A DNA stretch of 33,906 nucleotides from Chromatiales bacterium (GTDB lineage Bacteria > Pseudomonadota > Gammaproteobacteria > SZUA-152). Below the pieces are notes generated by a model that was given only the letters and a program-made list of their open reading frames with translations, had not been told where the DNA came from and made no database searches. The position numbers were made by a program, and so were the translations under genes. Below are positions 3,619-27,012 of this stretch, piece after piece (the first letter of the stretch is position 1; every line of letters begins with the position of its first letter). The stretch covers positions 1-33,906 of the forward strand of contig JALSHB010000010.1 in assembly GCA_026982475.1 (NCBI GenBank). The letters are read 5' to 3'.

Positions 3619-3683
3619 AATGCCAACTCCTCGTCATACCCGCCCGCGAACAACGCGGGCCTTCAAACAACTCATAACTGCCG

Positions 3684-3699: not shown

Positions 3700-3725
3700 G
3701 ATTTCAGGCCAACGCCAGAGGGGTT

Positions 3726-4121: not shown

Positions 4122-4141
4122 GCTACATCTCCTTACAGTTT

Positions 4142-4164: not shown

Positions 4165-4181
4165 GACTGTCTACTGGCCCA

Positions 4182-5015: not shown

Positions 5016-5128
5016 TTTAATGCTCCTCTGCAAGTAGGCGCCCGATCACGCCCCCTGAAGGGCCGGGCTGCTTGATCTAGCGGATACGGTGCCTCGCCAT
5101 CGGGCTCCATTTACCGCTCCCACCTCAC

Positions 5129-5156
5129 TTATCGGTCCCGGGGCCGTGATCCTTTA
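5129..5156 (-). promoter_or_regulatory. Sigma-28 (FliA) type promoter for fliC
   Basis: On the minus strand a -35 TAAAG is followed after 16 nt by a -10 ACCGATAA. The sigma-28 consensus is TAAA, 15 nt, GCCGATAA, so the match is close, with one mismatch in the -10 and one extra spacer base. Transcription would start near 5122, leaving a leader of about 107 nt before the flagellin ATG. The remainder of the 5016-5359 gap shows only this site and the sigma-54 site for the next gene. Confidence 0.75.
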
Positions 5157-5290
5157 GCCCGCCCGCGAAAAAAATCAGCGTCACGCCCCCCCTCACGGGG
5201 CCGGACAAAGGCCGGGATGACGATATTTTTCACTCTGCAATCAACCACTTGAAGATCCATCCGGCAACGATGCCGGACACATGACGGCAA

Positions 5291-5306
5291 TGGCATATTT
5301 CCTGCT
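5291..5306 (+). promoter_or_regulatory. Sigma-54 type promoter for the Maf glycosyltransferase
   Basis: The site TGGCATATTTCCTGCT carries the -24 TGGCA and -12 TGCT elements at the exact sigma-54 spacing. Predicted transcription start is near 5318, about 40 nt before the TTG start at 5360. It would place the glycosyltransferase, and perhaps the leg genes behind it, in the same regulatory class as fliD. Confidence 0.6.
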
Positions 5307-5359
5307 TATTACATGGCCAGAAACCCATAACGTCATGAACCCGACACGGGACCCGCACA

Positions 5360-7858: not shown

Positions 7859-8865
7859 ACCTGCACGGCAAGAAAATCCTCGTCACCGGCGCCGACGGCT
7901 TCATCGGCTCCCACCTCACCGAGGCCCTGATCCGCCGCGGCGGCGAGGTGCGCGCCTTCGTCTTCTACAACAGCTTCGGCCACTGGGGCTGGCTGGACCA
8001 ATCGCCCACCGAGATCAAGCGCGAACTGGACGTGTTCGCCGGCGACGTGCGCGACCCCCACGGCGTGCGCACCGCCCTGCAGGGCTGCGACGTGGTGCTG
8101 CACCTGGCCGCACTCATCGGCATCCCCTATTCCTACCACTCGCCCGACACCTATGTGGACACCAACATCAAGGGCACCCTCAACATCCTCCAGGCGGCCC
8201 GCGACTTGCAGTTGGACAAGGTAGTGCACACCTCCACCAGCGAGGTCTACGGCACCGCCCGATACGTGCCCATCGACGAGCAACACCCCCTGCAGGGTCA
8301 GTCACCCTACTCGGCCAGCAAGATCGGCGCGGACCAGATGGCCCTGTCGTTCCATCGCTCCTTCGACACACCGGTGACCATCGCCCGCCCCTTCAACACC
8401 TTCGGCCCCCGCCAGTCGGCGCGCGCCGTGATCCCCACCGTCATCACCCAGATCGCCAACGGCGAGCGCAAACTCAAGCTGGGCGCCCTGCACCCCACGC
8501 GCGACTTCAACTACGTGAAGGACACGGTCAACGGCTTCATCGCCATGGCCGAGTCGGACGCCGTGCTGGGCGAGGAAGTGAACCTGGGCAGTAACTTCGA
8601 GATCAGCATCGGCGACACGGTAAAACTCATCGCCGAGGCCATGGGCGCCGAGGTGGAAATCGAAACCGACGAACAGCGCCTGCGCCCCGAAAACAGCGAA
8701 GTGGAACGCCTCTGGGCCGACAACCGCAAGGCCCGTGAACTGCTCGGCTGGCAACCCGAATACGGCGGCCGCGAAGGCTTCAAACACGCATTGACCGAAA
8801 CAGCGGCGTGGTTCACCGACCCCGCCAACCTGGCGCACTACAAGCATGGCATCTACAACATCTGA
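7855..8865 (+). CDS. legB: NAD-dependent sugar 4,6-dehydratase LegB
   Basis: 336 residues from the ATG at 7855, which overlaps the preceding stop and has GGAG upstream. It is an extended short-chain dehydrogenase: GADGFIGS at 12-19 binds NAD(P), TSTSEVYG provides the catalytic Ser/Thr region, and Tyr152/Lys156 (YSASK) form the catalytic pair. The protein resembles the Campylobacter LegB sequence I recall along most of its length, including PFNTFGPRQSARA and EQRLRPENSEV. LegB removes water from nucleotide-GlcNAc to give the 4-keto-6-deoxy intermediate, the first committed step to legionaminic acid. A following 394-nt gap filled with repeats separates it from legC. Confidence 0.92.
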   Translation: MNLHGKKILVTGADGFIGSHLTEALIRRGGEVRAFVFYNSFGHWGWLDQSPTEIKRELDVFAGDVRDPHGVRTALQGCDVVLHLAALIGIPYSYHSPDTYVDTNIKGTLNILQAARDLQLDKVVHTSTSEVYGTARYVPIDEQHPLQGQSPYSASKIGADQMALSFHRSFDTPVTIARPFNTFGPRQSARAVIPTVITQIANGERKLKLGALHPTRDFNYVKDTVNGFIAMAESDAVLGEEVNLGSNFEISIGDTVKLIAEAMGAEVEIETDEQRLRPENSEVERLWADNRKARELLGWQPEYGGREGFKHALTETAAWFTDPANLAHYKHGIYNI

Positions 8866-8895
8866 GATGGGCAGATGAATCCGCGAAAAAGATTC

Positions 8896-9217
8896 CAACG
8901 CAAAGGCGCAAAGGCGCAAAGGGCGCAAAGAAAAAACCCGGAAATTGTCTTTCGGCTGAATGGAAATCTGTGCCGCCCCGTAGCTTGGGGTAACGGCTGC
9001 ATGGAAAAGCTGAGATCGGGAACCGGTCGAGAGACCGGCCTGGGCCATGCAGGAGGCAAGGCGACGCAGAATGCCAAAGCCGGGGAACGAACCTCAACAA
9101 TACCGTCTTTATATCCACTGCCGTTGGGGTTCATTCCTCTCCCCCATCCACCGTCGCGCAAATACCTTTTTCAGTCCTTTCCTTTGCGGCCTTTGCGCCT
9201 TTGCGCCTTTGCGTTGA
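8896..9217. repeat. Inverted pair of GGCGCAAA-type repeats between legB and legC
   Basis: A left arm at about 8896-8936 contains tandem GCAAAGGC units beginning CAACGCAAAGG. A right arm at about 9176-9217 is its inverted copy ending CCTTTGCGTTG. They enclose about 240 nt with no convincing gene; the only other structure seen is a small hairpin near 9018-9036 (ACCGGTC / GACCGG). The same arm pair recurs between legC and legG. The overall form, with inverted ends and no gene inside, is like a miniature mobile or palindromic repeated element. The interval 8866-9259 holds nothing else I can support. Confidence 0.75.
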
Positions 9218-9259
9218 GTCTTTCATGTTCGAAAACATCCATCCCGGCACTGGCCACGC

Positions 9260-10420
9260 ATGAGTTTGAATAACACCATCCTCGACACCCTGCGCGAGCT
9301 GCTGCCGCCGCAGCGCCCCATCGGCCTGCACGAGCCGAGCTTCGGCGACACGGAAAAGGCGCTGGTCGCCGACTGCCTCGACAGCGGCTGGGTATCCACG
9401 GCGGGCCAATACGTCGACCGCTTCGAACAGGATCTGGCCACCTACACCGGCATCCCCCACGCCGTCGCCACCGTCAACGGCACCAGCGCCCTGCACATCT
9501 GCCTGATCCTCGCCGGCGTGCGGCCCGGTGACGAGGTACTGCTGCCCGCCCTGACCTTCGTCGGCAGCGCCAACCCCATCGCCTGGCTGGGGGCCACGCC
9601 CCACTTCGTCGATTGCGAAGCGGAAACGCTGGGCGTCGATCCCGATCGGCTGGAGAGCCATCTCGCGGAGATCGCCGAGGTGCGTGGCGCCACCTGCTGG
9701 AACAAACAAACCGGCCAACCCATCCGCGCCCTGATGGCGGTGCACGTGCTCGGCCATCCGGCGCGCATGCAAGCGCTGGCGGCGCTCGCCCGGCGCTATC
9801 ACCTCACCCTCATCGAGGACGCCGCCGAGGCGCTGGGTTCATGGCGCACGGGCCTGCACAGCGGCAGCTGGGGCCAGTTGACCGCCCTCAGCTTCAACGG
9901 CAACAAGATCATCACCAGCGGTGGCGGCGGCGCGATACTCACCGGCGACCCGGATCTCGCCAATCGCGCCAGACACCTCACCACCACCGCCAAGCGGCCT
10001 CACCCCTGGGCCTTCGAACACGACGCCGTGGGCTACAACTACCGCCTGCCCAACCTCAACGCCGCCCTCGGCTGCGCCCAGCTCGAACGCCTGCCCGAAC
10101 GCCTGGCGAAAAAGCGCCGCCTGGCCGAAAGCTACGCCCAGGCCTTTGCCAGCCTCCCGGGACTCCACTTCCAGTTGGAACCCGAGGACTGCCGCAGCAA
10201 CTACTGGCTCAACCTGCTACTGCTGCCGGACGCCGAACAACGCGACGCCCTGCTCGCCGCCGCCAACGATGAAGGCATCCAGCTGCGCCCCTTCTGGACC
10301 CCTCTGCACCGGCAGAACATGTATGCCGATGCCCCGCGCATGGAATTGCCATGTACTGAAGCACTGTTCGCACGCGGCGTCTGCCTGCCCAGTTCAGCCG
10401 CCTTGGGAGGTAAAGAATGA
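9260..10420 (+). CDS. legC: LegC-type PLP-dependent sugar aminotransferase
   Basis: 386 residues, DegT/DnrJ/EryC1/StrS aminotransferase fold. GTSALHICL near residue 70 is the cofactor-phosphate region, EDAAEALGS carries the PLP-contacting Asp, and Lys216 in FNGNKIITSGGGG is the expected Schiff-base lysine. The YNYRLPNLNAALG segment is typical of the family. LegC transfers an amino group from glutamate to C4 of the 4-keto sugar made by LegB. The N-terminus (LREL.P....GLHEPSFG) and order after legB favour LegC over other members such as PseC. No clear ribosome site is seen before the ATG at 9260. Repeats lie on both sides. Confidence 0.88.
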   Translation: MSLNNTILDTLRELLPPQRPIGLHEPSFGDTEKALVADCLDSGWVSTAGQYVDRFEQDLATYTGIPHAVATVNGTSALHICLILAGVRPGDEVLLPALTFVGSANPIAWLGATPHFVDCEAETLGVDPDRLESHLAEIAEVRGATCWNKQTGQPIRALMAVHVLGHPARMQALAALARRYHLTLIEDAAEALGSWRTGLHSGSWGQLTALSFNGNKIITSGGGGAILTGDPDLANRARHLTTTAKRPHPWAFEHDAVGYNYRLPNLNAALGCAQLERLPERLAKKRRLAESYAQAFASLPGLHFQLEPEDCRSNYWLNLLLLPDAEQRDALLAAANDEGIQLRPFWTPLHRQNMYADAPRMELPCTEALFARGVCLPSSAALGGKE

Positions 10421-10450
10421 GCCTCGGTGTCCCTTTCAAGTTTTCTTTTT

Positions 10451-10607
10451 CAACGCAGAGGCGCAAAGGCGCAAAGGACGCAAAGTTTTTTACAATCGCC
10501 CTGGGAAAGTCTGCAAAAACTGAAACGCTGAGCGGAAGAGATATTGCGCATGAAACGCTTCAAAAAGTTTTTCTTTGCGCCCTTTGCGCCTTTGCGCCTT
10601 TGCGTTG
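10451..10607. repeat. Inverted pair of GGCGCAAA-type repeats between legC and legG
   Basis: A left arm at about 10451-10485 begins CAACGCAGAGGCGCAAAGG. A right arm at about 10571-10607 is the inverted form ending CCTTTGCGTTG. They enclose about 85 nt. The arms match those between legB and legC but the enclosed DNA differs. The rest of the 220-nt gap (10421-10640) holds nothing gene-like. Confidence 0.75.
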
Positions 10608-10640
10608 GATCTTCTCTGTCACAACCCAACCCACCACACC

Positions 10641-11801
10641 ATGAACAGCCCACGCCGCATCTGTGCCGTCACCGGCTCGCGCGCCGACTGGGGCCTTCTG
10701 CGCCCGGTACTGGACGGCATCCGCGCCGTGGATGACCTCGAGCTGCAACTGGCCGTCACCGGCAGCCACCTGTCGCCGGCCCATGGCCACACCGTGGACA
10801 TCATCGAAGATCAGGGTTTCAGCATCGATGCCCGCATCGACCTGGCCCAGCGCGGCGACGACGCCCGCGCCGTGACCCAGGCCCTGGGGCGCGGCGTGGC
10901 GGCCTTCGCCGACGTCCTGCAAGACCTCGATCCCGACCTGCTGCTGGTGCTGGGCGACCGTTTCGAAATCCTCGCCGCGGTGCAGGCCGCCCTCATCGCC
11001 CGCGTACCGGTGGCCCACATCGCCGGCGGCGACATCACCGAGGGCGCCTTCGACGACGCCATCCGCCACGCCATCAGCAAGATGTCCCACCTGCACTTCG
11101 CCACCCATGCCGAAGCGGCGCGGCGGCTGCGGCAAATGGGCGAGGCCAGGGTGCACCTCAGCGGCAGCCCCGGCATCGACCAGCTCCTGGCCACGCCACG
11201 ACTCGACCGCGCCGCACTGTCGCAATCGCTGGAATTCCCGCTGCGCGCGCGCAACCTGGCCATCACCTTTCATCCCGCCACCCTGGACGATGCCGACCCG
11301 TTGGAGCAACTCGGCGCCCTGCTCGCCGCCCTGGACCGCCTCGGCCCCGACACCGGCCTGGTCTTCACCGGCGCCAACAGCGACACCGGCGGCGACCGCC
11401 TCAATGCCCGCGTCAAAGAATTCGTCGACAGCCGCGACAACGCCTGCCTGCACCGTTCCCTGGGCCAGCAGCGCTATTACAGCCTGGTGGCCCTGGCCGA
11501 CGCGGTGGTGGGCAACTCCTCCAGCGGCCTCTACGAGGCCCCCTCGCTGGGCACGCCGACGGTGAACATCGGCAGCCGCCAGGACGGCCGGCCGCGCGCC
11601 GCCTCGGTCATCGACTGCGCGGCGGAGGCGGACGCCATCGTCGAGGCCATCCACGCCGCTTACCGCCGGGACATGGCGGGGGTGGAAAACCCCTACGGCG
11701 ACGGCCGCGCCAGCGAGCGCATCCTCGACGTGCTGCGCGGCCCCTGGTCGCGCCAGGCGCTGATCCACAAGCGTTTCATCGACCGGGAAGACACCCCATG
11801 A
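10641..11801 (+). CDS. legG: NeuC/LegG-type UDP-sugar 2-epimerase (hydrolysing)
   Basis: 386 residues from the ATG at 10641. An earlier in-frame ATG at 10575 lies inside the repeat arm and is rejected. TGSRADWGLL at the N-terminus, LGDRFEIL near 110, HIAGGD near 131, and GNSSSGLYEAPSLGTPTVNIGSRQ toward the C-terminus are the signature blocks of the NeuC/WecB epimerase family. LegG hydrolyses the UDP- or GDP-linked diacetyl-bacillosamine-type sugar while inverting C2, giving 2,4-diacetamido-2,4,6-trideoxymannose. Its stop overlaps the start of the synthase gene (ATGA), a sign of one operon. A plain sialic acid NeuC is the main alternative; legB and legC argue against that. Confidence 0.88.
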   Translation: MNSPRRICAVTGSRADWGLLRPVLDGIRAVDDLELQLAVTGSHLSPAHGHTVDIIEDQGFSIDARIDLAQRGDDARAVTQALGRGVAAFADVLQDLDPDLLLVLGDRFEILAAVQAALIARVPVAHIAGGDITEGAFDDAIRHAISKMSHLHFATHAEAARRLRQMGEARVHLSGSPGIDQLLATPRLDRAALSQSLEFPLRARNLAITFHPATLDDADPLEQLGALLAALDRLGPDTGLVFTGANSDTGGDRLNARVKEFVDSRDNACLHRSLGQQRYYSLVALADAVVGNSSSGLYEAPSLGTPTVNIGSRQDGRPRAASVIDCAAEADAIVEAIHAAYRRDMAGVENPYGDGRASERILDVLRGPWSRQALIHKRFIDREDTP

Positions 11802-12895
11802 GCGCACACATCACCGTCATCGCCGAGGCCGGCGTCAATCACGACGGCGACATCGAACGCGCCCTGGCCCTGGTGGACGCCGCCGCCGAGGCCGGCGCCG
11901 ACGTGGTCAAGTTCCAGACCTTCCGACCCGCCGCCCTGGTCAGCCGCCACGCGCCGCGCGCCGACTACCAGGTCCGCAACGACACCGCCCGCCAGGACGA
12001 CTCCCAGCTCGCCATGCTGCAACGCCTGGCGCTCGACGACGCCGACCACTTCCGCCTGCGCGAGCACTGCCAGGCGCGGGGCATCGAATTCCTCTCCTCG
12101 CCCTTCGACGCCGACAGCGCCCGCTTCCTCATCGAGGACATGGCCCTGCCCCGGCTCAAGCTGGGCTCCGGCGAGCTGACCAACGCCCCGCTGCTGCTGC
12201 AGATCGCCCGCAGCGACCGGCCCCTGATCCTATCCACCGGCATGGCCAGCGTGGCGGAAATCCGCGAAGCCCTGGGCGTACTGGCCTTCGGCTATCTCCA
12301 CGAAACCGCGCCGCCTTCGGTCCCGGCCTTCACCGCCGCCTTCGAGCGCACCGCAGGTTATGTGGTACTGAAGGAAAGGCTCACCCTGCTGCACTGCACC
12401 ACCGAATACCCGGCGCCCTTCGTCGACGTGAACCTGCGCGCCATGGATCACCTGCGCGACGCCTTCGGCCTGCCCGTGGGCTTTTCCGACCACACCCCCG
12501 GCATCGCCATGCCCATCGCCGCCGCCGCGCGCGGCGCCCGCGTGATCGAGAAACACTTCACCCTCGACCGCCACCTGCCCGGCCCCGACCATCGCGCCTC
12601 GCTGGAGCCCCATGAACTGCACGCCATGGTGGAAGGCATCCGCCAGGTGGAACAGGCCCTCGGCGACGGCAAGAAGCACGTGGCGGACAGCGAGCGGAAG
12701 AACCGCGCCATCGCACGCAAATCCCTGGTGGCCGCCCGCCCCATCCACGCCGGCGAGGTCTTCAGCGAAGACAACCTCACCGCCAAACGGCCCGGCGACG
12801 GCCTCGCCCCCGCGCACTACTGGACCCTGCTGGGCCACCCGGCGAGGCGCGACTACAACACCGACGAGGCCATCGACGAGGAAGAGCTGCCATGA
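11798..12895 (+). CDS. legI: Legionaminic acid synthase (NeuB family)
   Basis: 365 residues. The NeuB barrel spans about 1-280 (IAEAGVNHDGDIERAL, VKFQTF, KLGSGELTNAPLL, LSTGMAS, HCTTEYP, GFSDHTPG, EKHFTLDR). A C-terminal antifreeze-like SAF domain follows (RKSLVAARPIHAGEVFSEDNL to LLGHPARRDY). The enzyme condenses phosphoenolpyruvate with the 6-deoxy-diacetamido mannose from LegG to make the nine-carbon acid. The ATG overlaps the preceding stop by four bases. NeuB, LegI and PseI look alike; the neighbouring LegB/C/G enzymes decide for LegI. Confidence 0.9.
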   Translation: MSAHITVIAEAGVNHDGDIERALALVDAAAEAGADVVKFQTFRPAALVSRHAPRADYQVRNDTARQDDSQLAMLQRLALDDADHFRLREHCQARGIEFLSSPFDADSARFLIEDMALPRLKLGSGELTNAPLLLQIARSDRPLILSTGMASVAEIREALGVLAFGYLHETAPPSVPAFTAAFERTAGYVVLKERLTLLHCTTEYPAPFVDVNLRAMDHLRDAFGLPVGFSDHTPGIAMPIAAAARGARVIEKHFTLDRHLPGPDHRASLEPHELHAMVEGIRQVEQALGDGKKHVADSERKNRAIARKSLVAARPIHAGEVFSEDNLTAKRPGDGLAPAHYWTLLGHPARRDYNTDEAIDEEELP

Positions 12896-12912
12896 CATCA
12901 AACACCCACCCT

Positions 12913-12970
12913 GTAGGAGCGCCTTCAGGCGCGACAGCCGCACCACAACGATCGCGCCTGAAGGCGCTCC
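12913..12970. repeat. REP-like palindrome between legI and legH
   Basis: A perfect 19-bp inverted repeat (GGAGCGCCTTCAGGCGCGA at 12916-12934 and its complement at 12952-12970) with a 17-nt spacer. It is preceded by GTAG at 12913, the tetranucleotide that marks REP elements mobilised by RAYT transposases. It fills most of the 98-nt gap. Confidence 0.75.
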
Positions 12971-12993
12971 AAAAAGGGGAGATAAAGTAAGCC

Positions 12994-13653
12994 GTGGCAA
13001 ACCCGACAACAACCTCCCCCCCCCTGATCCTGCTCGGCGCCGGCGGCCACGCCACCGTGCTGACGGAGATCCTGCAACAGGCCGGCGAGCCCCTGCTCGG
13101 CCTGTGCGCGCCGCGACCACCGGCGCCCGGCCTGCTCGCCGCCCTGGCCTATCTGGGCGACGACGCGGCCGCCGAACGGCACGCCCCGGATGCCGTGCAA
13201 ATGATCAACGGCCTCGGCTCCAGCGCCGCGGCCACGGCGCGGGCCGAGATCTTCCGCCGCTTCCGCAAGGCCGGCTACCGCTTCGCCGACGTGCGCCACC
13301 CCTCGGCCATCGTCAGCCCCAGCGCGCGCACCGGCGCGGGCCTGCAGGCGCTGGCCGGCTGCCTGATCAACAGCGAGGCCCGCCTCGGCGACAACGTGCT
13401 GATCAACAGCCACGCCGTGGTCGAACACCACTGCGACATCGGCGACCACTGCCACGTCGCCAGCGGCGCCGTGCTCTGCGGTGGCTGCCAACTGGAGGCG
13501 GGGGTGCACGTGGGCGCCGGGGCGGTGGTGAAACAGGGCGTGCACATCGGCGCCGGCGCGGTGATCGCCGCCGGCGCGGTGGTCATCGCCGACGCACCGC
13601 CGCACAGCCTGGTGGCCGGGGTGCCGGCACGTATCAAGCGGGAGAACATCTGA
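12994..13653 (+). CDS. legH: PglD/NeuD/LegH-type sugar N-acetyltransferase
   Basis: 219 residues from GTG at 12994 with GGGGAG upstream. An N-terminal PglD-like nucleotide-sugar domain ([17 protein letters not shown], about 10-85) precedes a left-handed beta-helix of hexapeptide repeats (about 100-210). [14 protein letters not shown] contains the His expected to act as base, and GVPAR near the end is a common closing motif. LegH transfers acetyl from acetyl-CoA to the 4-amino group made by LegC. A NeuD-like O-acetyltransferase role is possible, but with no other acetyltransferase in the cluster LegH is the better fit. The stop overlaps legF by one base (TGATG). Confidence 0.78.
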
Positions 13654-14366
13654 TGGATCCGCGCGAGGTGCTGGTGGTGATCCCCGCCCGCGGCGGCTCG
13701 AAGGGGCTGCCGGGCAAGAACATCAAGCCGCTGGGCGGCCTGTCCCTGCTGGGTTGGAGCGCCGAGGCCCTGCGCCGGAGCGGCCTGCGCGAGGCCCGCT
13801 GCCTGCTCAGCACCGACGACGCGGCCATCGCCGAGGCCGGCCGCGCCTGCGGCCTGGCGGCGCCCTTCCTGCGCCCGGCGGCCATCGCCGGCGACACCGC
13901 CTCCTCCGTGGACGTGGTCCTGCACGCCCTGGACTGGCTGGCCGAGACGCACGGCGAACACCCGCCCTGGGTACTGCTGCTGCAACCCACCTCGCCCTTC
14001 CGCCCGCCTGAGGCCATCGACCGGGCCTGGGACATGTTGAGCGACGATCCCACGCTGGACGCCGTGATCGGCGTCAAAGCCATCCACCGCAGTCCCGGCA
14101 GCCTGTTCCTGCCCGACGCCCGGGGCCGCCTGCGCCCGCTGGGCGACGACGGCATCACCCGCCGCCAGGACAGCCCCGGCCTGCTTACCCCCAACGGCGC
14201 CCTCTACCTGGTACGCAGCGCCGTGCTGCGCGCCGGCGGCAACTTCTTTCCGCCCGCCACCGCCCCCCTGCCCATGGACACCATCGCCAGCCTCGACATC
14301 GACGACACCACCGACTGGGCCATGGCCGAGGCCCTGCAGGGCCTGAGCTGGCGGGCTGAGACCTAA
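13653..14366 (+). CDS. legF: CMP-legionaminic acid synthetase (acylneuraminate cytidylyltransferase)
   Basis: 237 residues from the ATG at 13653, sharing its first base with the upstream stop. The N-terminal signature IPARGGSKGLPGKNIKPLGG is that of CMP-sialate synthetases; LLQPTSPFR near 110 and SLDIDDTTDW at the end are also typical. It activates the nine-carbon acid with CTP to give the CMP donor that Maf needs. The last codons of the gene (from 14343) belong to a 102-bp duplicated segment whose second copy lies 191 bp downstream. Confidence 0.88.
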   Translation: MDPREVLVVIPARGGSKGLPGKNIKPLGGLSLLGWSAEALRRSGLREARCLLSTDDAAIAEAGRACGLAAPFLRPAAIAGDTASSVDVVLHALDWLAETHGEHPPWVLLLQPTSPFRPPEAIDRAWDMLSDDPTLDAVIGVKAIHRSPGSLFLPDARGRLRPLGDDGITRRQDSPGLLTPNGALYLVRSAVLRAGGNFFPPATAPLPMDTIASLDIDDTTDWAMAEALQGLSWRAET

Positions 14367-14444
14367 GCAGCATATTTTTTCACCACAGAGACACAGAGAA
14401 CACAGAGAAAACCTAAAAAGAACATCTTGTGACACCGCTCCGCG
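14343..14444 (+). repeat. Direct repeat copy 1, spanning the legF 3' end
   Basis: 102 bp that match 14534-14635 with four differences. The copy starts inside the last codons of legF (CTGAGCTGG...), then contains TCACCACAGAGA-type short repeats and an AACATCTTGTGACACCGCTC tail. The stop codon TAA of this copy is TGA in the second. Confidence 0.85.
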
Positions 14445-14463
14445 CCGTCTCAAACCAGCCAAG

Positions 14464-14529
14464 GTAGGGTGGGCGCCGCCCACCATAGCGTTTGGCTACA
14501 CCGAAAACGGTGGGCAATGCCCACCCTAC
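14464..14529. repeat. Paired REP-like inverted repeat between the two direct repeats
   Basis: GTAGGGTGGGCGCCGCCCACC at 14464-14484 faces GGTGGGCAATGCCCACCCTAC at 14509-14529. Each half is itself a small palindrome and each carries GTAG at its outer end, the arrangement of a REP doublet. Confidence 0.7.
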
Positions 14530-14533
14530 GCAA

Positions 14534-14635
14534 CTGAGCTGACGGACTGAGACCTGAGCAGCATATTTTTTCACCACAGAGACCCAGAGAACACAGAGAA
14601 AACCTAAAAAGAACATCTTGTGACACCGCTCCGCG
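14534..14635 (+). repeat. Direct repeat copy 2 downstream of legF
   Basis: Second copy of the 102-bp segment, offset 191 bp from the first. It keeps a degenerate copy of the legF terminal codons without the gene. After it, up to the ptmE start at 14788, I see only a short GTGGCGCTCCGCGCCAC palindrome near 14650; the gap 14367-14787 has no gene. Confidence 0.85.
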
Positions 14636-14787
14636 GTGTCACACAGCCCGTGGCGCTCCGCGCCACCTCAATCAAGGCAAGCAGACCGGCACCACCGCTC
14701 TCCGACACCACCCGATGGCACCCAACTTGCATATTTCCGCCACAACGACACCAACAACGATTCCTTGACGCCGGTAAACGCAAGCCC

Positions 14788-15837
14788 GTGAACGACTGGA
14801 AACCCATTGCCGTACCCTCCACCACCCCCATGAAGACGGTGCTCGAGGTCATCGACCGCGGCCGCATGCAGATCGCCCTGGTGGTGGACGATGGCTGCCA
14901 CCTCTGCGGCACCGTCACCGATGGCGACATCCGCCGCGCCCTGCTGCGCGGCGAGGGCCTGGACACGCCGGTGGAAAAATTCATGAACGACACCCCCGTC
15001 ACCGGCCTGGTCAGCGAGGACGAACTGCTCTGGCAGCGCACCATGCAACGCCACAGCCTCGGCCACCTGCCGCTGCTCGACGCCAGGGGCTGCATCGTCG
15101 GCCTCACCCGCTTTCAGCCGCCGCAGGAACCACGCCACGACAACGCCGTGGTGCTGATGGTCGGCGGCCTGGGCTCGCGCCTGCGGCCGCTGACCCAGGC
15201 CCGTCCCAAGCCCCTGTTGCAGGTGGGCTCCAAACCCATCCTCGAGACCATCGTCGAGAACTTCGCCAGTCACGGCTTTCACCGCCTCTATCTGTGCATC
15301 AACTACAAGGGCGAGATGATCCGCGAACACTTCGGCGACGGCAGCCGGTGGGGGGTGGAAATCACCTATGTGGAGGAGAAGGAACGCATGGGCACCGCCG
15401 GCGCCCTCAGCCTGCTGCCGGAGCGCCCGGACGCGCCCTTCTTCGTCATGAACGGCGACCTGCTCACCCAGGTGGACTTCGTGCGCCTGCTGCGCTTCCA
15501 CCAGAAACAGGCGGCCGCGGCCACCCTCTGCGTGCGCGAATACGCCCACCAGATCCCCTACGGGGTGGTGGACCTGGACGGCCACACGGTCACCGGCATG
15601 CTGGAAAAACCCAGCCACCGCGTACACGTCAATGCCGGCATCTACATGCTCAACCCGGAGGCCCTGGCACTGATCCCGCACGGCCGCTACCTGGATATGC
15701 CGGACCTGATCAACCGCATGCTCGAACAGGACATGCCCGTGGGCAGCTTTCCCATACACGAATACTGGATCGACATCGGCCAGATGCAGGAATTCCAGCA
15801 GGCCCACGAAGACTACGAAGAGAAGTTCCCGGCCTGA
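14788..15837 (+). CDS. ptmE: PtmE-like nucleotidyltransferase with CBS pair
   Basis: 349 residues from GTG at 14788, chosen because the protein then begins MNDWKPIAV, close to the usual start of this family; upstream codons run back into repeats. Residues 1-115 are two CBS modules (LVVDDGCHLCGTVTDGDIRRALL, then HLPLLDARG). From about 120 there is a nucleotidyltransferase domain with GGLGSRLRPLTQARPKPLL and FFVMNGDLL. Campylobacter PtmE is a glucosamine-1-phosphate guanylyltransferase feeding GDP-sugars into legionaminic acid synthesis; this architecture fits. That would make the route GDP-linked. The sugar and nucleotide cannot be proven from sequence. No good ribosome site is visible. Confidence 0.8.
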   Translation: MNDWKPIAVPSTTPMKTVLEVIDRGRMQIALVVDDGCHLCGTVTDGDIRRALLRGEGLDTPVEKFMNDTPVTGLVSEDELLWQRTMQRHSLGHLPLLDARGCIVGLTRFQPPQEPRHDNAVVLMVGGLGSRLRPLTQARPKPLLQVGSKPILETIVENFASHGFHRLYLCINYKGEMIREHFGDGSRWGVEITYVEEKERMGTAGALSLLPERPDAPFFVMNGDLLTQVDFVRLLRFHQKQAAAATLCVREYAHQIPYGVVDLDGHTVTGMLEKPSHRVHVNAGIYMLNPEALALIPHGRYLDMPDLINRMLEQDMPVGSFPIHEYWIDIGQMQEFQQAHEDYEEKFPA

Positions 15838-15885
15838 CCGCACCTTGAAAACAAACCCGACGAGACGAGAAAAACAGGGATGAAC

Positions 15886-17376
15886 ATGCCGTGCCCCCAC
15901 CCCGCAGAGGCCGCCCAGGCGGCACACGCCGCCAGTGCGCCTGACGGCAACCTCTATTTCTTCGACTATCGACAGGCCCGCCAGGCCGCCGCCCAGCGCA
16001 GGCAGGTGCCCACCACCCACCCCAGCATCACCGCGCTGCAGGTCTGCTTCTACGACGGCCCGCCGCAGTCGGACGCCCTGGAAAACATGGTCAGCCTGCC
16101 CTTCGAACAGATCGAGCAGCGCCTCCTCGACCTGCCCTATCAGCTGCCAAACCAGATCATCTTCCCGGACGGCACCCCCGGCCAGTTCATCGCCGAGATC
16201 GGCCGGGTATTCGAGCAAGCGCTGTTGAATATCGTCCAGCGGCGCAAGCTGCTCGCGGCCCGGATCCGCCAGCAGCTGAAAAACCAGCGTCCCGGATTCG
16301 ACAGAAGCGCACCGCTGCGCATCCTGCTCAAATCGAGCCGGCTGACCACCGTGATGCAACACTGCTCCAGCCAGCTGGCCCAGGCCCTGGAAAAGCAGGG
16401 CCATGAAGTGCTCCTGTGCATGGAGGAGAACGACATGCAGCTGCTCGACAGCTACCTGCACCTCAAGGCCCAGGCGGCCTTCAACCCGCATGTGGTGTTC
16501 AACATCAACAGCCTGGACACCCAGCACCTGCACCCGGACGTGTTCTACTTTTCCTGGTGGCAGGACCCCATGCCCGCCATCAGTTGTGGCATTGCCCTGC
16601 CCTGGCGGGAGCGCGACATCACGCTCTCCCTGACGCGGAATTTCGATGACTACCTGCGGCGCTGCAGCTGCCCCGAGATCCGGCGCCAGCACTTCTGCAT
16701 CGACACCGAGGTCTTCAATACCCGCCACGACGTGAAACGGGAAAACAAGATCGTCTTCGTCGGTTCCTCCTACCGCGCCCGACTGCGGGAAAACCCCGGC
16801 GAGCGGGGCGCCCTGCGGGATATCGTCGCGCGCATGGAGGCCGGCGAGCCCGTCGACGAGGCCTTCCTGCGGCCGCTGAGCCGACGCTGGGGGCTCGAAT
16901 ACCACCGGGTCTACTGGGATCTGTTCCACTACGCGGTACGCGATGTCACCTTGCAGTGGCTGTGCCGCGAGGCGCCCATCCCCGTCGAAGTCTACGGCCG
17001 CGGCTGGCAGGACGACCCGCAGATACGTCCCCACTTCCGCGGTGAACTGCCGCACGGCGAGGCCGTGGCGCGCGCCTACAACTCGGCCCGCTACGCCTTC
17101 ATCTGCCACCCCTTCGAGATCAATTCCCAGCGCCTGGTGGAGGCCGCCGCCTGTGGCAGCGTGCCGGTGGTGTTCGACTGCCGCCACATCGCCGAACCGC
17201 CGCACTGGGATGAATACTGCCGTTTCTTCCGCACCGCCGCGCAGCTGCGCGACTGTCTGCGCGAGGGCAATGCGCCGGATCCGACCGCCATCGCCCGCTC
17301 ATCAAGCTACGACCAACTGGCGGATTTTGTCACCCGCAGCGTCCACGAACGGTTGGGCTGGGCCCTGCCGGCGTAA
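15886..17376 (+). CDS. CgeB-like glycosyltransferase family protein
   Basis: 496 residues from the ATG at 15886; an ATG at 15880 is only one base from the AGGG ribosome site, whereas 15886 has seven-base spacing. The C-terminal part shows a GT-B-type layout resembling CgeB/spore-maturation glycosyltransferases: KIVFVGSSYRARLREN near 290, VEVYGRGW near 370, and HPFEINSQRLVEAAACGSVPVVFD near 410, where the Glu-rich donor loop lies. The N-terminal 130 residues are unassigned. It follows ptmE by about 50 nt and likely adds a further sugar to a flagellar or surface glycan. Acceptor and donor are unknown. Family assignment is from motifs only. Confidence 0.7.
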   Translation: MPCPHPAEAAQAAHAASAPDGNLYFFDYRQARQAAAQRRQVPTTHPSITALQVCFYDGPPQSDALENMVSLPFEQIEQRLLDLPYQLPNQIIFPDGTPGQFIAEIGRVFEQALLNIVQRRKLLAARIRQQLKNQRPGFDRSAPLRILLKSSRLTTVMQHCSSQLAQALEKQGHEVLLCMEENDMQLLDSYLHLKAQAAFNPHVVFNINSLDTQHLHPDVFYFSWWQDPMPAISCGIALPWRERDITLSLTRNFDDYLRRCSCPEIRRQHFCIDTEVFNTRHDVKRENKIVFVGSSYRARLRENPGERGALRDIVARMEAGEPVDEAFLRPLSRRWGLEYHRVYWDLFHYAVRDVTLQWLCREAPIPVEVYGRGWQDDPQIRPHFRGELPHGEAVARAYNSARYAFICHPFEINSQRLVEAAACGSVPVVFDCRHIAEPPHWDEYCRFFRTAAQLRDCLREGNAPDPTAIARSSSYDQLADFVTRSVHERLGWALPA

Positions 17377-21560: not shown

Positions 21561-22235
21561 ATGCTGCTGAAGATCGCCGATGTGCTTGATGCCGAAAAAC
21601 TCGCCAATATCCGTACCATGCTGGAGAAAGTAACCTTTATCGACGGCCAGCACAGCGCCGGGCAGGCCGCGCGGCGGGTGAAGAACAATCTGGAGATGCA
21701 ACAGCAGGGACAGCAGGCGGAATACCTCGATCACCTGCTCATGGGCAGCCTGGCCGAGCACCCCGACTTCCGCAGCGGCGCCCTGCCCTATCGCGTCGCC
21801 CAGCCCGTGTTTGCCCGCTATACCCAGGGCATGCACTACGGCGATCATGTCGATGACCCCATCATGGGCAACGGCCCGGCCAAGTTTCGCACCGACGTCT
21901 CGGTGACGGTGTTCCTCAATGAGCCGGATGACTATGAGGGCGGTGAACTGGTCATCAACACCACCTTCGGCCCCCAGCGGATCAAGCTGCCCGCCGGCCA
22001 TGCGGTGATGTATCCGTCCACCAGCGTGCATCACGTGGCCGAGGTGACGGGCGGCGAGCGTCTCGCCGCCATCGTCTGGCTGCAGAGTATGGTGCGTGAT
22101 CCGGGCCAGCGTGAACTGCTCTACCAGCTGGATCAGGCCCGCAACGTGCTGCTGGCGGAACGCCCGGATGCCGAGGAAACCAAGCAGGTGGATCGTTCCT
22201 ACGTCAACCTGATCCGCATGTGGAGCGAGGTCTGA
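21561..22235 (+). CDS. PKHD-type Fe(II)/2-oxoglutarate hydroxylase (PiuC/YbiX family)
   Basis: 224 residues, the family's usual length. His96 and Asp98 (YGDHVDDP), His157 (TSVHHV) form the iron-binding facial triad and Arg167 (GERLAA) is placed to bind 2-oxoglutarate. PSTSVHHVAEVTGGER and DVSVTVFLNEPDDYEGGEL are signature stretches. Related PiuC/YbiX genes sit beside TonB iron receptors, but no receptor is present here. The gene converges on the DsrC-like gene across a small hairpin. The substrate is unknown. Confidence 0.92.
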   Translation: MLLKIADVLDAEKLANIRTMLEKVTFIDGQHSAGQAARRVKNNLEMQQQGQQAEYLDHLLMGSLAEHPDFRSGALPYRVAQPVFARYTQGMHYGDHVDDPIMGNGPAKFRTDVSVTVFLNEPDDYEGGELVINTTFGPQRIKLPAGHAVMYPSTSVHHVAEVTGGERLAAIVWLQSMVRDPGQRELLYQLDQARNVLLAERPDAEETKQVDRSYVNLIRMWSEV

Positions 22236-22309: not shown

Positions 22310-22651
22310 TCAATAACCGCCCTTGCGGCGTGATTCCGGCAGGCCGGCGATGCGCCCACCCTGCTTGCTGGGGTCTTTGGGAAACAACTCGTAGATGTCC
22401 TTCTGGCCAAGCTTCTCGTTCCACTTGGCCGACATGGCCTTGACGATGTTGCGCGTGTTGGGCTGATTCTGTGCATTGTTGAAATATTCGTCGCGCAGGT
22501 ATTCGATCAGATCCCAGTGCTTCTGGGTCAGCTCGCCGATTTCTTCCATGCGGGCCATTTCCTCGGCCAGCTCCTTGCTCCAGTCATCCAGATTGACCAG
22601 GTATCCGGTGGCGGTGGTCTCGATGGTCTTGCCGTTGAATTCAATTGCCAT
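22310..22651 (-). CDS. rspA: Cysteine-less DsrC/TusE-family protein
   Basis: 113 residues with AAAGGAGG before the ATG. The fold matches DsrC: MAIEFNGKTIETTATGYL, DDWSKELAEEMA, HWDLIEYLRDEYF and YELFPKDP align with the true DsrC at 29349. DsrC ends QACKIAGLPKPTGCV with two redox cysteines; this protein ends QGGRIAGLPESRRKGGY, so Gly replaces both (positions 99 and 112). It therefore cannot carry trisulfide or persulfide on the tail. DsrC-family proteins without these cysteines have been named RspA and proposed to be regulatory. It is the last gene of the operon starting at 25256. Confidence 0.9.
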   Translation of the reverse strand: MAIEFNGKTIETTATGYLVNLDDWSKELAEEMARMEEIGELTQKHWDLIEYLRDEYFNNAQNQPNTRNIVKAMSAKWNEKLGQKDIYELFPKDPSKQGGRIAGLPESRRKGGY

Positions 22652-22705
22652 TGCTTCCTCCTTTATTTGTTTTTTCGCTCTTAATCACCAAACAACCAAT
22701 TGCAG

Positions 22706-23386
22706 TTAGTCTGTATTCAGGGTCTGAATGCCCTTGTGCGGAATGAACAGGCCGCAGCCCAGCAATCTGTGCGGCCCCAGGCCCTGCGCCTGTAGCCGCA
22801 GGGATTCGTCGTATTCCAGGTCGGCGACCATCAGACTGCGGGTCTGCACATGGCCTTCAGGCGTCTTGATGGCATGCAGGGTGCCGCACAGCAGTTTGCG
22901 GGGGCGGATCTCCAGCCGCCGCAGCTGCGCGGCCACCCAGTCCAGCATCTGCTCCTCGTTTTCGAGATCCCGGTCCGTGGCCTGGTGGCGCGCGAACAGC
23001 GTCGTCAGCACACTTAGCGGCCGTTGCGTGGCGCGCTTCAGCGTCAGCGGATAGCCGTCCACGTCCAGGGTCTTGCCCTGCAACGACAGGGCGTCCTCGA
23101 TACGGTGTTTCGGCACCCGCAGGGTGAACCTGGTGCGCCGGGATAACTGCAACAAGTCATCCGGGCCTTGTGGCCGCATCCAGCCATTGCCCGACGCGGC
23201 GCCGTGAATGGTGTGGATGCCGGCGCTTGGCTCATCGGTCAGCCAGGGCAACTCGCGCTGCATGGCCTGCGCCAGGGCGTAGGCATGATCGACCGGCAGG
23301 CAGCGGCAATCGATGCCGAAGACGAGATCGACCACGGCATCACTCACCTCCGGTGGCTCGTTGCCCTTGTCCTCTTCCCAGTACAT
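22706..23386 (-). CDS. Cas6/Cmx6-like RAMP protein without CRISPR
   Basis: 226 residues. PVDHAYALAQAM, AGIHTIHGAASGNGW, LSRRTRFTLRVP and RSLMVADL resemble, from memory, proteins annotated as type I-MYXAN Cas6/Cmx6. The C-terminus has the glycine-rich loop of RAMP ribonucleases (GLGPHRLLGCGLFIPHKGI, about 202-220). His34, His58 and His61 are candidate catalytic residues. Cas6 cuts CRISPR RNA at repeats, yet no array or other cas gene lies in the window. It starts 18 nt after the 235-residue gene and ends 54 nt before the DsrC-like gene. Its role may be processing of another RNA, or RNA binding only. Confidence 0.75.
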   Translation of the reverse strand: MYWEEDKGNEPPEVSDAVVDLVFGIDCRCLPVDHAYALAQAMQRELPWLTDEPSAGIHTIHGAASGNGWMRPQGPDDLLQLSRRTRFTLRVPKHRIEDALSLQGKTLDVDGYPLTLKRATQRPLSVLTTLFARHQATDRDLENEEQMLDWVAAQLRRLEIRPRKLLCGTLHAIKTPEGHVQTRSLMVADLEYDESLRLQAQGLGPHRLLGCGLFIPHKGIQTLNTD

Positions 23387-23404
23387 GGTGCGCTATCGGC
23401 CCGC

Positions 23405-24112
23405 CTATTGATCCGGCAAGGAGGCCCAGATGGCCTCGCGGTCGATCCACCAGTCTTCCTGCACCAGCACGTCGACGACATTGCGCAGACGCGGCAGGAA
23501 CTTGGCCGGGTCCGTCAGCTCCAGCTTTTCCATCCAGAAGTCGAATTGCTCCTGCTTCTGCACGTCGCTGTGGCGGCGCGCCACGGTGCCCATCATGTGA
23601 TTGGTGAACAGCATCAGGTTGTCGCGCTGCTTGCCTTCGGCGCGCAGGTCGACGATATAGTGCGCCACCGCGGCGGCCACCGCGGCGCCATCGGCCTCGG
23701 CGGGCGTCTCGTCGATGATGTGCTGCAGCATGGCCACGCTCAGTTCGGGATCGATGGGGAAGGTCACCGCCAGCCACACGCCCTGCCCGAGCGCCGCCAG
23801 CGACCAGGGCTGATCGGCCATGAACATGATGTTGCAGGCATGCACGGCACCCTCCCACTGCTCGGCGGCGACGAACGTATCGAAAGCCTCGCGGGCGGTA
23901 TCGAAGGCGGCTTCGGTCTGCCGCAGGTCGATGAGGATTTCCGCGATGCGGTTCTGTATTTCGGCCTTCTGCGTGGGCGCGTAACCGGCGGGAAGCTCGA
24001 TCAGTTCCTGTTCCGCCGCGGCCAGTTCCTGTCGCAGTCTTTCCTCGGAGACGACTTCTTCGTCACCGCTGTCGGCATCACGCATGCCGGCCCCTTCGTC
24101 GAGATATTTCAT
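23405..24112 (-). CDS. Conserved hypothetical helical protein (TPR-like)
   Basis: 235 residues, acidic at the N-terminus (MKYLDEGAGMRDADSGDEEVV). Residues about 25-140 are paired helices (LRQELAAAEQELIELP, KAEIQNRIAEILIDLRQTEAAFDTAREAFDTFVAAEQWEGAVHACN) that resemble TPR-type packing. A C-terminal region with FWMEKLELTDPAKFLPRLRNVVDVLVQEDWWIDREAIWASL closes the protein. No membrane segment or catalytic motif is seen. The start is one nucleotide from the upstream stop, so translation is coupled. No function is known to me; a scaffold role is a guess. Confidence 0.85.
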   Translation of the reverse strand: MKYLDEGAGMRDADSGDEEVVSEERLRQELAAAEQELIELPAGYAPTQKAEIQNRIAEILIDLRQTEAAFDTAREAFDTFVAAEQWEGAVHACNIMFMADQPWSLAALGQGVWLAVTFPIDPELSVAMLQHIIDETPAEADGAAVAAAVAHYIVDLRAEGKQRDNLMLFTNHMMGTVARRHSDVQKQEQFDFWMEKLELTDPAKFLPRLRNVVDVLVQEDWWIDREAIWASLPDQ

Positions 24113-24113
24113 G

Positions 24114-24341
24114 TCAGTCTTCTTCTGTGCAGCCGTTGGTGGTACCCATTACCGAATACACACCGGCGAAGGCGCCTTCGACACGATCCTCCCAGTTGGC
24201 CGGGGTGTCAGGGTAATTGGGTTTGATGTCGATCTTGAGGTGAATCTCGCCCTGTCTGGCCTGTTCGCCAATCACGTGGACCAGATCCTCGAAGGACTCC
24301 AGACCCGGGTTCTGAATCAATAGTTCACTCAGGTAAATCAT
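24114..24341 (-). CDS. Small hypothetical protein of the dsr-divergent operon
   Basis: 75 residues, starting MIYLSELLIQNPGLESFEDLVHVIGEQARQG and ending NGCTEED. A helical N-half and a beta-like EIHLKIDIKPNYPDTP segment are visible; one cysteine lies near the end. It lies 21 nt after the TauD-like gene and one nucleotide before the 235-residue gene. I do not recognise it. Confidence 0.8.
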   Translation of the reverse strand: MIYLSELLIQNPGLESFEDLVHVIGEQARQGEIHLKIDIKPNYPDTPANWEDRVEGAFAGVYSVMGTTNGCTEED

Positions 24342-24362
24342 GTTTGCTCCAGTAAACGTCGT

Positions 24363-25256
24363 TTAGCTCACACGCTGATAAAAGCGCGCCCGGTACATCA
24401 GACGGCCCTGGCCGGCCGGCGCCTCGTCTTCAAAGGCGCTGCGGGTGTGCAGTACATTGTTGCAGATCACGCCCTGACCGGCGCTCAGCCGGTGACGGAA
24501 GATCATGGGTGAATCCTCCGCCAACAGGGCCTCCAGCGAGCGCACCGCGGCCTGGGTGTCGGCGTCACGTTTCCATGCGATGGAACGGGTGCGCGCGGTG
24601 TAGCGCATGTGCAGTTTGCCGCTGGCCGCATCCACGGTAAATACCGGGCCACTCTGCGCCGGACGAATCTCGACACCCTGTTCAACGTTGGCGGGGATGG
24701 TCATGGCGTCCGGCTGCATCAGGGCGGCGATGTGGCGTGGATTTTCGTCGCGCAGGCGGATGTAGGCGATCTCGTGATCCAGCAGGCGGTTTTCGCCCCC
24801 CCGCGCCGCCGGACGCGCACAGTGCAGCACCATGGCGAGCACCCGGTGCCGGGGCGAATTGTAGTAGCCGTCGGTGTGCCAGCTGATGGCATGATTGCTG
24901 TAGGGAATGTAGTCGTGCTGGCGGCGCTGCGCCGACACCTGCAGGGCCGAGATGCCATCGTCGTCGGCGTACATGTTGCAGTCCAGGTCGTGCAGACCAA
25001 GCTGCGCGCCCAGGTCGGTCAGCAGGGTCTTGTCCAGGGCTTCGTCGGGATGCGCCAGGGTGTAGACAGCCATGTTGGCGCGCTCGCAGGCCCGCAAAAT
25101 CGCGGCACGCTCGGTATCGCTCAGGGCATGCGGGTTTTCGACTGGCACCACCAATTCATCCAGACGGACGGGAAAGTCCGCCAGCTTGCGCTCCCGCCAG
25201 GCGCCGTAGGCCTGCGTGGCGTCAAGATCGAAGGGACTGTTGTCTGTGTGCGCCAT
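24363..25256 (-). CDS. TauD/TfdA-like Fe(II)/2-oxoglutarate dioxygenase
   Basis: 297 residues from the ATG at 25256; a longer frame to 25340 begins in noncoding-looking sequence and is rejected. His127 and Asp129 (SWHTDGYYN) and His270 (NNVLHTRSAF) form the iron triad, with Arg285 or Arg289 (GRLMYRARF) for 2-oxoglutarate. TauD relatives release sulfite from taurine, so a sulfur-linked substrate is possible but is only inferred from proximity to dsr. It is the first gene of a leftward five-gene operon and is divergent from dsrA across 448 nt. Confidence 0.9.
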   Translation of the reverse strand: MAHTDNSPFDLDATQAYGAWRERKLADFPVRLDELVVPVENPHALSDTERAAILRACERANMAVYTLAHPDEALDKTLLTDLGAQLGLHDLDCNMYADDDGISALQVSAQRRQHDYIPYSNHAISWHTDGYYNSPRHRVLAMVLHCARPAARGGENRLLDHEIAYIRLRDENPRHIAALMQPDAMTIPANVEQGVEIRPAQSGPVFTVDAASGKLHMRYTARTRSIAWKRDADTQAAVRSLEALLAEDSPMIFRHRLSAGQGVICNNVLHTRSAFEDEAPAGQGRLMYRARFYQRVS

Positions 25257-25331
25257 GGCGTCGTTTCCAGCGGTTGAGGTCAAGCGACCCATGCTCCATA
25301 CCCGATCTGCCACCCCTCCCCAAACGGGGGA

Positions 25332-25359
25332 TTTACACATTCAAGCATTAGCATATAAT
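25332..25359 (+). promoter_or_regulatory. Sigma-70 type promoter, probably for dsrA
   Basis: TTTACA, 16-nt spacer, perfect TATAAT at 25354-25359. Transcription would start near 25366, giving a dsrA leader of about 340 nt. Overlapping leftward boxes for the TauD-like operon are plausible in this AT-rich stretch but not resolvable. Confidence 0.55.
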
Positions 25360-25489
25360 CATATTTGCAATATCCAACATAACAGAGATTCAGCGACTGG
25401 CAACACCACATCAGGGATATACGAAGCTGCTCCAGTGGTCATGTAGCAGGGGCAGTCGCCGGCGTCCAGCGCGATTCGTCAATCCGATA

Positions 25490-25515
25490 CCTGAATCCGC
25501 AGGCTCAGGTATCAC
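25490..25515. promoter_or_regulatory. Palindromic motif, copy 2, upstream of dsrA
   Basis: CCTGA-ATCCGCAGGC-TCAGG followed by TATCAC; here the outer arms extend to ATACCTGA/TCAGGTAT (8 bp). Matches 21323-21348 at 24 of 26 positions. It sits inside the predicted dsrA leader. An additional TGACC/GGTCA half-site pair lies at 25553-25579. The rest of 25257-25704 shows no gene. Confidence 0.55.
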
Positions 25516-25704
25516 CTAAGGGATAGCCCCGCTGCGGCGACCCCCTCCCCTTTGACCAATTGCGCCATGACGCGGGTCACATAGACTTCAATCAGTCAAA
25601 GGCTGACCATTTGTATGGCTTCCCGCGAAGTCCAGAAAAACAAGAATGGTCCGATGTTATGCCAGAAGGGCTAGACGCGATTTCAAAACCAGGAGAAACG
25701 GGCA

Positions 25705-27012
25705 ATGGCCGAGCAAACACCCAAGAACCCCGAGAAGCACAGTACTTACCTCCCCAAGGAGAAGCATTCCAGCAAGCCGCTGCATGACACCCCCATGCTG
25801 GACGAGCTGGAATCCGGCCCCTGGCCGAGCTTTGTCACCGGCCTGAAACGTCTCGCCATGGACAACAACATGATGGTGGACCTGCTGGGTCAGCTGGAGC
25901 ATTCCTACGAGACCCGCCTGGGTTACTGGAAGGGTGGCACGGTCTCCGTTCTGGGTTATGGCGGCGGCATCATCCCCCGCTTCACCGAGCTGATGGACGA
26001 AGAGGGCAAGCCCCTGTTCCCCGAGGCCAAGGAATTCCACACCGTGCGCGTGCAGCCGCCCGCCGGCAACCACTACACCACCGCCATGCTGCGTCAACTG
26101 TCCGAGTCCTGGAACAAGTACGGTTCCGGCCTCATCGCCTTCCACGGCCAGACCGGCAACATCATGTTCATCGGCACCACCTCTGAAAAGACCCAGCCCT
26201 TCTTCGACGAGATCAACAGCTACGGCTGGGATCTCGGCGGCGCGGGTCCCTGCGTGCGCACCGGCATGTCCTGCGTGGGCGCCGCCCGCTGCGAACAGTC
26301 CTGTGCCAACGAACAGAAGATCCACCGCCTGCTGGTCAACAACTTCCTCGACGACATGCACCGCCCGGCCCTGCCCTACAAGTTCAAGTTCAAGGTATCG
26401 GGCTGTCCCAACGACTGCATGAACTCCATCCAGCGTTCCGACTTCGCCGTCATCGGCACCTGGCGCGACGACATGCAGGTAGACCAGGAAGAAGTGAAGA
26501 AATTCGTCGCCGACAAGGGCCGCGACTACGTGGTCGAAAACGTCGTCAACCTCTGCCCCACCAACGCCCTGAGCCTCAACGAAGACGACACCCTCAACGT
26601 CGACAACCGCAACTGTGTGCGCTGCATGCACTGCATCAACGTCATGACCAAGGCGCTGTCACCGGGCAACGACAAGGGCGTCACCATCCTCCTCGGCGGC
26701 AAACGCACGCTGAAGATCGGCGACCTGATGGGCACCGTCATCGTCCCCTTCATGAAGCTGGAGACCGAAGAGGACTACGAGCGCATCGTCGAACTGGCCG
26801 AGGAGATCATCGATTTCTGGGCCGAGAACGCCCTGGAGCACGAGCGCGTCGGCGAGACCATCGACCGCATCGGCCTGGTCAACTTCCTCGAGGGCATCGA
26901 TCTCGACGTTGATCCGCACATGATCAGCGAGACGCGCCAGAGCAGCTACATCCGCATGGACAAGTGGGACGAAGAAGCCGAGAAGTGGAAACAGCGTCAG
27001 GCCGCGGGCTGA
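25705..27012 (+). CDS. dsrA: Reverse dissimilatory sulfite reductase alpha subunit DsrA
   Basis: 435 residues, AGGAGA before the ATG. Cys190-x5-Cys196 (CVGAARC) and Cys234-x3-Cys238 (CPNDC) ligate the siroheme-coupled [4Fe-4S] cluster. A ferredoxin domain follows with Cys284, Cys304, Cys307 and Cys310 (CPTNALS, CVRCMHC). The N-terminus (LESGPWPSFVTGLKRLA) resembles oxidative-type DsrA of sulfur oxidisers, and dsrEFH downstream supports that direction. In the cytoplasm DsrAB oxidises sulfur carried by DsrC to sulfite. It heads the operon. Confidence 0.98.
   Translation: MAEQTPKNPEKHSTYLPKEKHSSKPLHDTPMLDELESGPWPSFVTGLKRLAMDNNMMVDLLGQLEHSYETRLGYWKGGTVSVLGYGGGIIPRFTELMDEEGKPLFPEAKEFHTVRVQPPAGNHYTTAMLRQLSESWNKYGSGLIAFHGQTGNIMFIGTTSEKTQPFFDEINSYGWDLGGAGPCVRTGMSCVGAARCEQSCANEQKIHRLLVNNFLDDMHRPALPYKFKFKVSGCPNDCMNSIQRSDFAVIGTWRDDMQVDQEEVKKFVADKGRDYVVENVVNLCPTNALSLNEDDTLNVDNRNCVRCMHCINVMTKALSPGNDKGVTILLGGKRTLKIGDLMGTVIVPFMKLETEEDYERIVELAEEIIDFWAENALEHERVGETIDRIGLVNFLEGIDLDVDPHMISETRQSSYIRMDKWDEEAEKWKQRQAAG

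Follow-up and report, generated by a model that had tools for sequence, protein, structure and literature searches.

A lone Cas6-family gene in a conserved accessory operon facing dsrA in gammaproteobacterial sulfur oxidisers

Cas6 proteins are processors of CRISPR RNA. By family score, the closest known system to the gene described here is the Cas6/Cmx6 protein of type I-MYXAN CRISPR (TIGR02807, PF09559), and the nearest CRISPR relatives that we found are cas6/cmx6 genes of cyanobacterial plasmids, mostly located beside cas3 and cmx8 or cas8a1. The dsr-linked Cas6 is adjoined instead by dsr genes and the other genes of its unit, with neither cas genes nor an array. One of its companions corresponds to a gene that has already been named: according to PMC7596348, the DsrQ of Lenk et al. 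2012 matches the TauD-like gene of this locus in family, position and orientation. Another companion belongs to the DsrC/TusE family.

The window, that is, the whole 33,906-nucleotide stretch of DNA that was analysed, contains the following features.

22310 to 22651, minus strand: DsrC-like protein without C-terminal cysteines (PF04358, 6e-33)
22706 to 23386, minus strand: Cas6/Cmx6-family RNA endonuclease without CRISPR neighbours (TIGR02807 above its cut-off, H34 and G212 kept)
23405 to 24112, minus strand: p235, predicted to be helical and perhaps TPR-like, a lineage-variable member (AlphaFold model)
24114 to 24341, minus strand: p75, a small conserved protein with the conserved core DxKPxxxDTPxxWE
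24363 to 25256, minus strand: TauD-like Fe(II)/2-oxoglutarate oxygenase, published as DsrQ (PF02668, 3e-22, iron-binding residues kept)
25257 to 25704, no strand: intergenic region common to the unit and dsrA (open reading frame boundaries)
25705 to 27012, plus strand: dsrA, the divergent partner, with dsrBEFHCMKL downstream (open reading frame, homologue search, operon order)

An earlier note on this DNA had proposed five leftward genes with gaps of 21, 1, 18 and 54 nt that face dsrA across a shared intergenic region, and had named them as a TauD-like protein, proteins of 75 and 235 residues, Cas6/Cmx6 and a cysteine-less DsrC. All of this was borne out: the genes are minus-strand reading frames with exactly these gaps, profiles and sequence agree with the identities, and the plus-strand dsrA begins at 25705. 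The TauD-like frame has an ATG at 25256 and is open up to 25340.

Judged by its sequence, the dsr-linked protein is a Cas6, situated outside any CRISPR locus. It scores 124.3 bits against a cut-off of 98.85 for TIGR02807, and 213.5 against 26.7 for PF09559 (3e-63); 8fcj, a type I-B Cas6, was the sole solved relative that sequence comparison found (E 4e-20). The histidine at the catalytic position, H34 within a DH motif, and G212 of the glycine-rich loop are each present in 159 of 159 distinct Cas6 proteins, and the loop as a whole is nearly invariant. Both motifs are common to the cyanobacterial CRISPR Cas6/Cmx6 proteins, and this is as expected of a working nuclease. Thus the dsr-linked Cas6 is probably an enzyme. 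It also has signatures of its own that are missing from the aligned CRISPR homologues, namely an N-terminal MxW, a GNGW and a C-terminal HK. We rejected a viral or plasmid origin: viral contigs held no relative of Cas6 or p235, p235 was on no plasmid, and the plasmid matches to Cas6 were cyanobacterial. On one of these, a Gloeobacter morelensis plasmid (L236, 2768-7237), the Cas6/Cmx6 gene has no other annotated cas genes in reach, and its neighbours are a PAPS-reductase-family gene, a cupin and hypothetical genes.

The arrangement seen in the window is widespread. Of 57 genomes covered by a search of relatives, 27 have Cas6, and the contigs read around the matches again place dsrA opposite TauD, p75, p235, Cas6 and the DsrC-like gene in several families, with Cas6 identity down to ~41-50%. 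A scan of species genomes yielded 510 Cas6 relatives, and the regions that were read, the best 80 of the 510 plus 80 more drawn across the class, have the same dsrA-facing arrangement. Carriers include Thiogranum, Thiohalobacter, Sulfuricaulis, Sedimenticola selenatireducens and Allochromatium palmeri, the last with p75, p235 and Cas6 next to dsrA. Among the fetched loci, the first gene of the unit is divergent from dsrA and less than 3 kb away in 139, with 121 distinct intergenic sequences, so the arrangement is more than chance. The earlier note had suggested looking for co-occurrence of all five genes with dsr, and this holds for part of the set: p75, Cas6 and the DsrC-like protein are the most constant members; many lineages lack p235, and some lack TauD. 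The data support dsrQ-p75-(p235)-cas6-dsrC-like as a conserved dsr accessory operon of gammaproteobacterial sulfur oxidisers.

Among 369 Gammaproteobacteria, Cas6 occurs in 118 and dsrA in 120: 112 genomes carry both, 6 carry Cas6 only, 8 dsrA only and 243 neither (p 2e-76, with kinship ignored). The tally by genus (272 genera, Cas6 in 87 and dsrA in 88) resembles that by genome, and most exceptions reflect genome incompleteness or a contig that breaks off next to dsrA, as in G145, whose contig stops inside p235, and L225, in which dsrA lies at a contig end. The small protein p75 likewise tracks dsrA across the class, in agreement with the check that the earlier note had proposed for it; it is present in 88 of 303 genomes, and 88 of those 88 carry dsrA or Cas6. 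Pairwise distances correlate at 0.51 between Cas6 and DsrA, and at 0.84 between DsrA and DsrB. The link is not merely positional, because the small genome G131 retains dsrA, Cas6 and p75 at separate sites on one chromosome (~487, 529 and 1207 kb). The displaced Cas6 of two small genomes, G131 and G247 (L192, L201), adjoins, divergently, a gene that by eye resembles RNase III.

These distributions bear on two rival explanations. The unit genes could be mere hitchhikers of a conserved dsr region, and the strong synteny is what such hitchhiking would produce; their retention when displaced from dsr, in genomes of 1.0-1.6 Mb and across many families, makes this very improbable. Alternatively, Cas6 could mature CRISPR RNA in trans, its proximity to dsr being accidental. 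It is a member of the Cas6 family, and its own genome does contain a CRISPR array and Cas1 on a different contig (G000:C203, L295), where Cas1 lies in a 577-residue frame beside the array, whose repeat unit holds CCGCAGC-AATTT-GCTGCGG. However, 67 of the 118 Cas6 genomes lack Cas1, including five of 1.0-1.1 Mb (G062, G164, G276, G308 and G371), and the presence of Cas6 follows dsrA and not Cas1; the association between Cas6 and Cas1 among Gammaproteobacteria is not significant (p 0.08). We therefore regard a CRISPR role in trans as hardly credible. Within the unit, a search for repeats or a mini-CRISPR gave nothing beyond short, chance-like pairs, and PADLOC matched Cas6 as its sole component, which falls short of a multi-component anti-phage defence system. 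The co-occurrence with dsrA, the carriers devoid of Cas1, the invariant histidine and the distribution of p75 together tie a CRISPR-independent Cas6 to Dsr sulfur oxidation. That Cas6 works outside CRISPR and is linked to dsr in Gammaproteobacteria is thus supported by the data.

The TauD-like protein retains an H-x-D...H iron site (H155 and D157 in 119 of 119 sequences, H298 in 118 of 119), and its gene is transcribed away from dsrA, as is that of DsrQ. Release of sulfite from sulfonates is a published speculation for DsrQ, according to PMC7596348. A sulfonate side-branch in which DsrQ frees sulfite and Cas6 is only loosely attached would agree with that speculation, with the TauD fold and with the intact iron site. 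Nevertheless, p75 and Cas6 persist in some lineages that have no DsrQ (L120, L121, L163, L165), so the unit is not centred on DsrQ; we consider the sulfonate explanation improbable.

The remaining members are less familiar. No Pfam or NCBIfam family matches p75; its model predicts three helices, and the fold has no match among solved structures. Profiles likewise assign no family to p235, for which the AlphaFold model is all helical with a mean pLDDT of 92; its best Foldseek matches are TPR-type but weak, none reaching E <= 0.001. The DsrC-like protein is a member of PF04358 (113.9 bits against 24.9) and shares with the DsrC/TusE family a similar C-terminal arm sequence. In contrast to the DsrC sulfur carrier, it has lost the penultimate cysteine and has an invariant KGGY end: its C terminus is RRKGGY, compared with GCV in the true DsrC of the window, and 119 of 123 homologues have no cysteine in the final 12 residues. 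It belongs to a cysteine-less branch of DsrC/TusE, called RspA.

Outside the Gammaproteobacteria the unit has a different composition. Cas6 was found in no genome of the phylum sample beyond our own. As a control its dsrA genomes are weak, since the majority have no dsrEFHC and possess dsrAB-dsrL alone; we used instead 14 alphaproteobacteria that bear dsrE and therefore have the oxidative Dsr set. Cas6 is present in 0 of these 14 Dsr oxidisers. Upstream of dsrA in their 11 readable loci, TauD and p75 together face dsrA in 8, TauD alone in 1, and neither is in reach in 2. The pairing of DsrQ with p75 is thus older or wider than the link to Cas6, since alphaproteobacteria have it without Cas6. 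DUF6967 (PF22295) occurs in most of these loci. In L281, L287 and L291, DsrQ and p75 facing dsrA are followed by DUF6967 and then by the siroheme synthase CysG, which was identified by profile in L287 and by likeness in L281 and L291. DUF6967 also adjoins Cas6 in a few gammaproteobacteria (L031, L032 and L197).

Siroheme synthase CysG produces the cofactor of DsrAB, so that the alphaproteobacterial form of the unit with CysG would make this cofactor. The operon might then serve the biogenesis or protection of DsrAB, with DsrQ oxidising a protein or cofactor, p75 acting as its partner, the DsrC-like protein plugging the channel of DsrAB while it is assembled, and Cas6 binding or cutting an RNA merely in support. 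This is a serious rival because TauD and p75 in alphaproteobacteria are accompanied by DUF6967 and siroheme synthase, and not by Cas6; a DsrC-like protein that retains the arm sequence and has no cysteine also suits it. On the other hand, CysG is not a member of any of the gammaproteobacterial units that were read, and such a role does not require a conserved nuclease site. On balance we think this explanation rather unlikely, and rank it close behind RNA processing by Cas6.

The region between the unit and dsrA contains conserved elements, and two further features lie within it.

25509 to 25526, no strand: dyad GTATCAC-CTAA-GGGATAG, a putative operator at the dsrA promoter (TATCAC-N4-GGGATA found at 25510-25525)
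25582 to 25587, plus strand: TAGACT, predicted as the -10 element for dsrA (its position, +73 relative to the dyad, is conserved)

The dyad recurs in 119 of 132 distinct intergenic regions, its consensus being TATCCC-N4-GGGATA. Ungapped alignment on it reveals a second C-rich/G-rich element at ~+34 to +49, of which the window has only a weak form, and at +73 a -10-like TAAACT; L220 has a perfect TATAAT at the -10 position. Where the Cas6 operon has moved, the dyad remains with dsrA and is absent upstream of the displaced Cas6 operons. We read it as a putative DNA operator through which a regulator would act on the dsrA promoter; the transcription start is predicted at ~25594, ~76 nt downstream of the dyad. 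Its interpretation as a Cas6 hairpin was rejected, as the paired positions do not covary and the spacing to the promoter is fixed. A wide regulon was rejected as well, with only 1-6 loose matches per genome and 2 in our own.

Stable hairpins of variable sequence occur in the dsrC-dsrM and dsrA-dsrB spacers of many dsr operons, with or without Cas6. They are found in 81 of 109 dsrC-dsrM spacers, compared with 17 in shuffles, and in 50 of 123 dsrA-dsrB spacers, compared with 13. Despite this enrichment we rejected them as Cas6 targets, since they are similarly present in Cas6-less alphaproteobacteria (few loci for dsrC-dsrM). Rfam gave zero matches in the 20-34 kb part of the window, and no Cas6-specific RNA target emerged from the dsr spacers, the intergenic dyad or Rfam.

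On sulfide, the dsrEFH and dsrC transcripts of A. vinosum exceed that of dsrA, according to PMC3397948 citing Grimm 2010, so that uneven output of the dsr operon is real in this organism. That work of Grimm et al. on dsr regulation likewise concerns uneven expression, and the papers that we read do not mention Cas6. A separate dsrC promoter has been reported, which can account for uneven transcripts without cleavage.

The earlier note had proposed regulatory or RNA-level control of dsr by this unit, and had noted no earlier description of it known to its author. The tie to dsr stands, in that Cas6 and p75 track dsrA even when moved apart, as does the placement of Cas6 outside CRISPR; the RNA-level part fares less well, with no Cas6-specific target and with spacer hairpins that also occur in Cas6-less alphaproteobacteria. 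As to novelty, the oxygenase is already known as DsrQ, and we found no report of a link between Cas6 and dsr in the open-access literature, where absence is not proof. RNA-level control of dsr is plausible, but we do not accept it as settled, because the alphaproteobacterial DsrQ-p75 pair lacks Cas6 and has siroheme synthase in one version.

Our preferred explanation, held tentatively and at somewhat less than even confidence, is that Cas6 acts as an endoribonuclease that processes RNA of the dsr system and thereby sets the amounts of Dsr proteins, within the dsr accessory operon. Cas6 derives from the CRISPR family and now serves Dsr sulfur oxidation, a step that the data support. Most likely it would be an active, hairpin-specific endoribonuclease on cellular RNA of the dsr system, and its processing might set the amount of each Dsr protein. 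The proteins p75 and p235 may be its partners, the cysteine-less DsrC could report sulfur load or the state of DsrAB, and DsrQ may supply the pathway or shield it when oxygen is present. A bolder form, to which we give slightly less credence, is that a CRISPR Cas6 has been domesticated as a near-obligate Dsr component in Gammaproteobacteria, cutting non-CRISPR RNA together with p75 and the cysteine-less DsrC and so controlling energy metabolism.

The occurrence of a lone Cas6 in nearly every gammaproteobacterial Dsr oxidiser, usually facing dsr and often with no CRISPR, suggests that a CRISPR component has been taken over for sulfur metabolism. Its fidelity to dsrA through the class, and its retention in symbiont-sized genomes devoid of Cas1, suggest that a CRISPR protein has been put to use in core metabolism. 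Cas6, p75, p235 and the cysteine-less DsrC are thus candidate genes for the assembly or control of reverse Dsr sulfur oxidation, and, if the RNA role is true, one of the major energy pathways in the sulfur cycle would be overlaid by a layer of RNA processing.

Two further gene groups in the window merit mention. A PKHD-type Fe(II) oxygenase gene (21561-22235) recurs 0.1-7 kb past the DsrC-like gene in many loci, mostly in convergent orientation. At 79-17376, genes for NeuB, a cytidylyltransferase, an MptE-like protein, an epimerase and an aminotransferase form a sugar-modification cluster beside FliD, which probably serves flagellin glycosylation.
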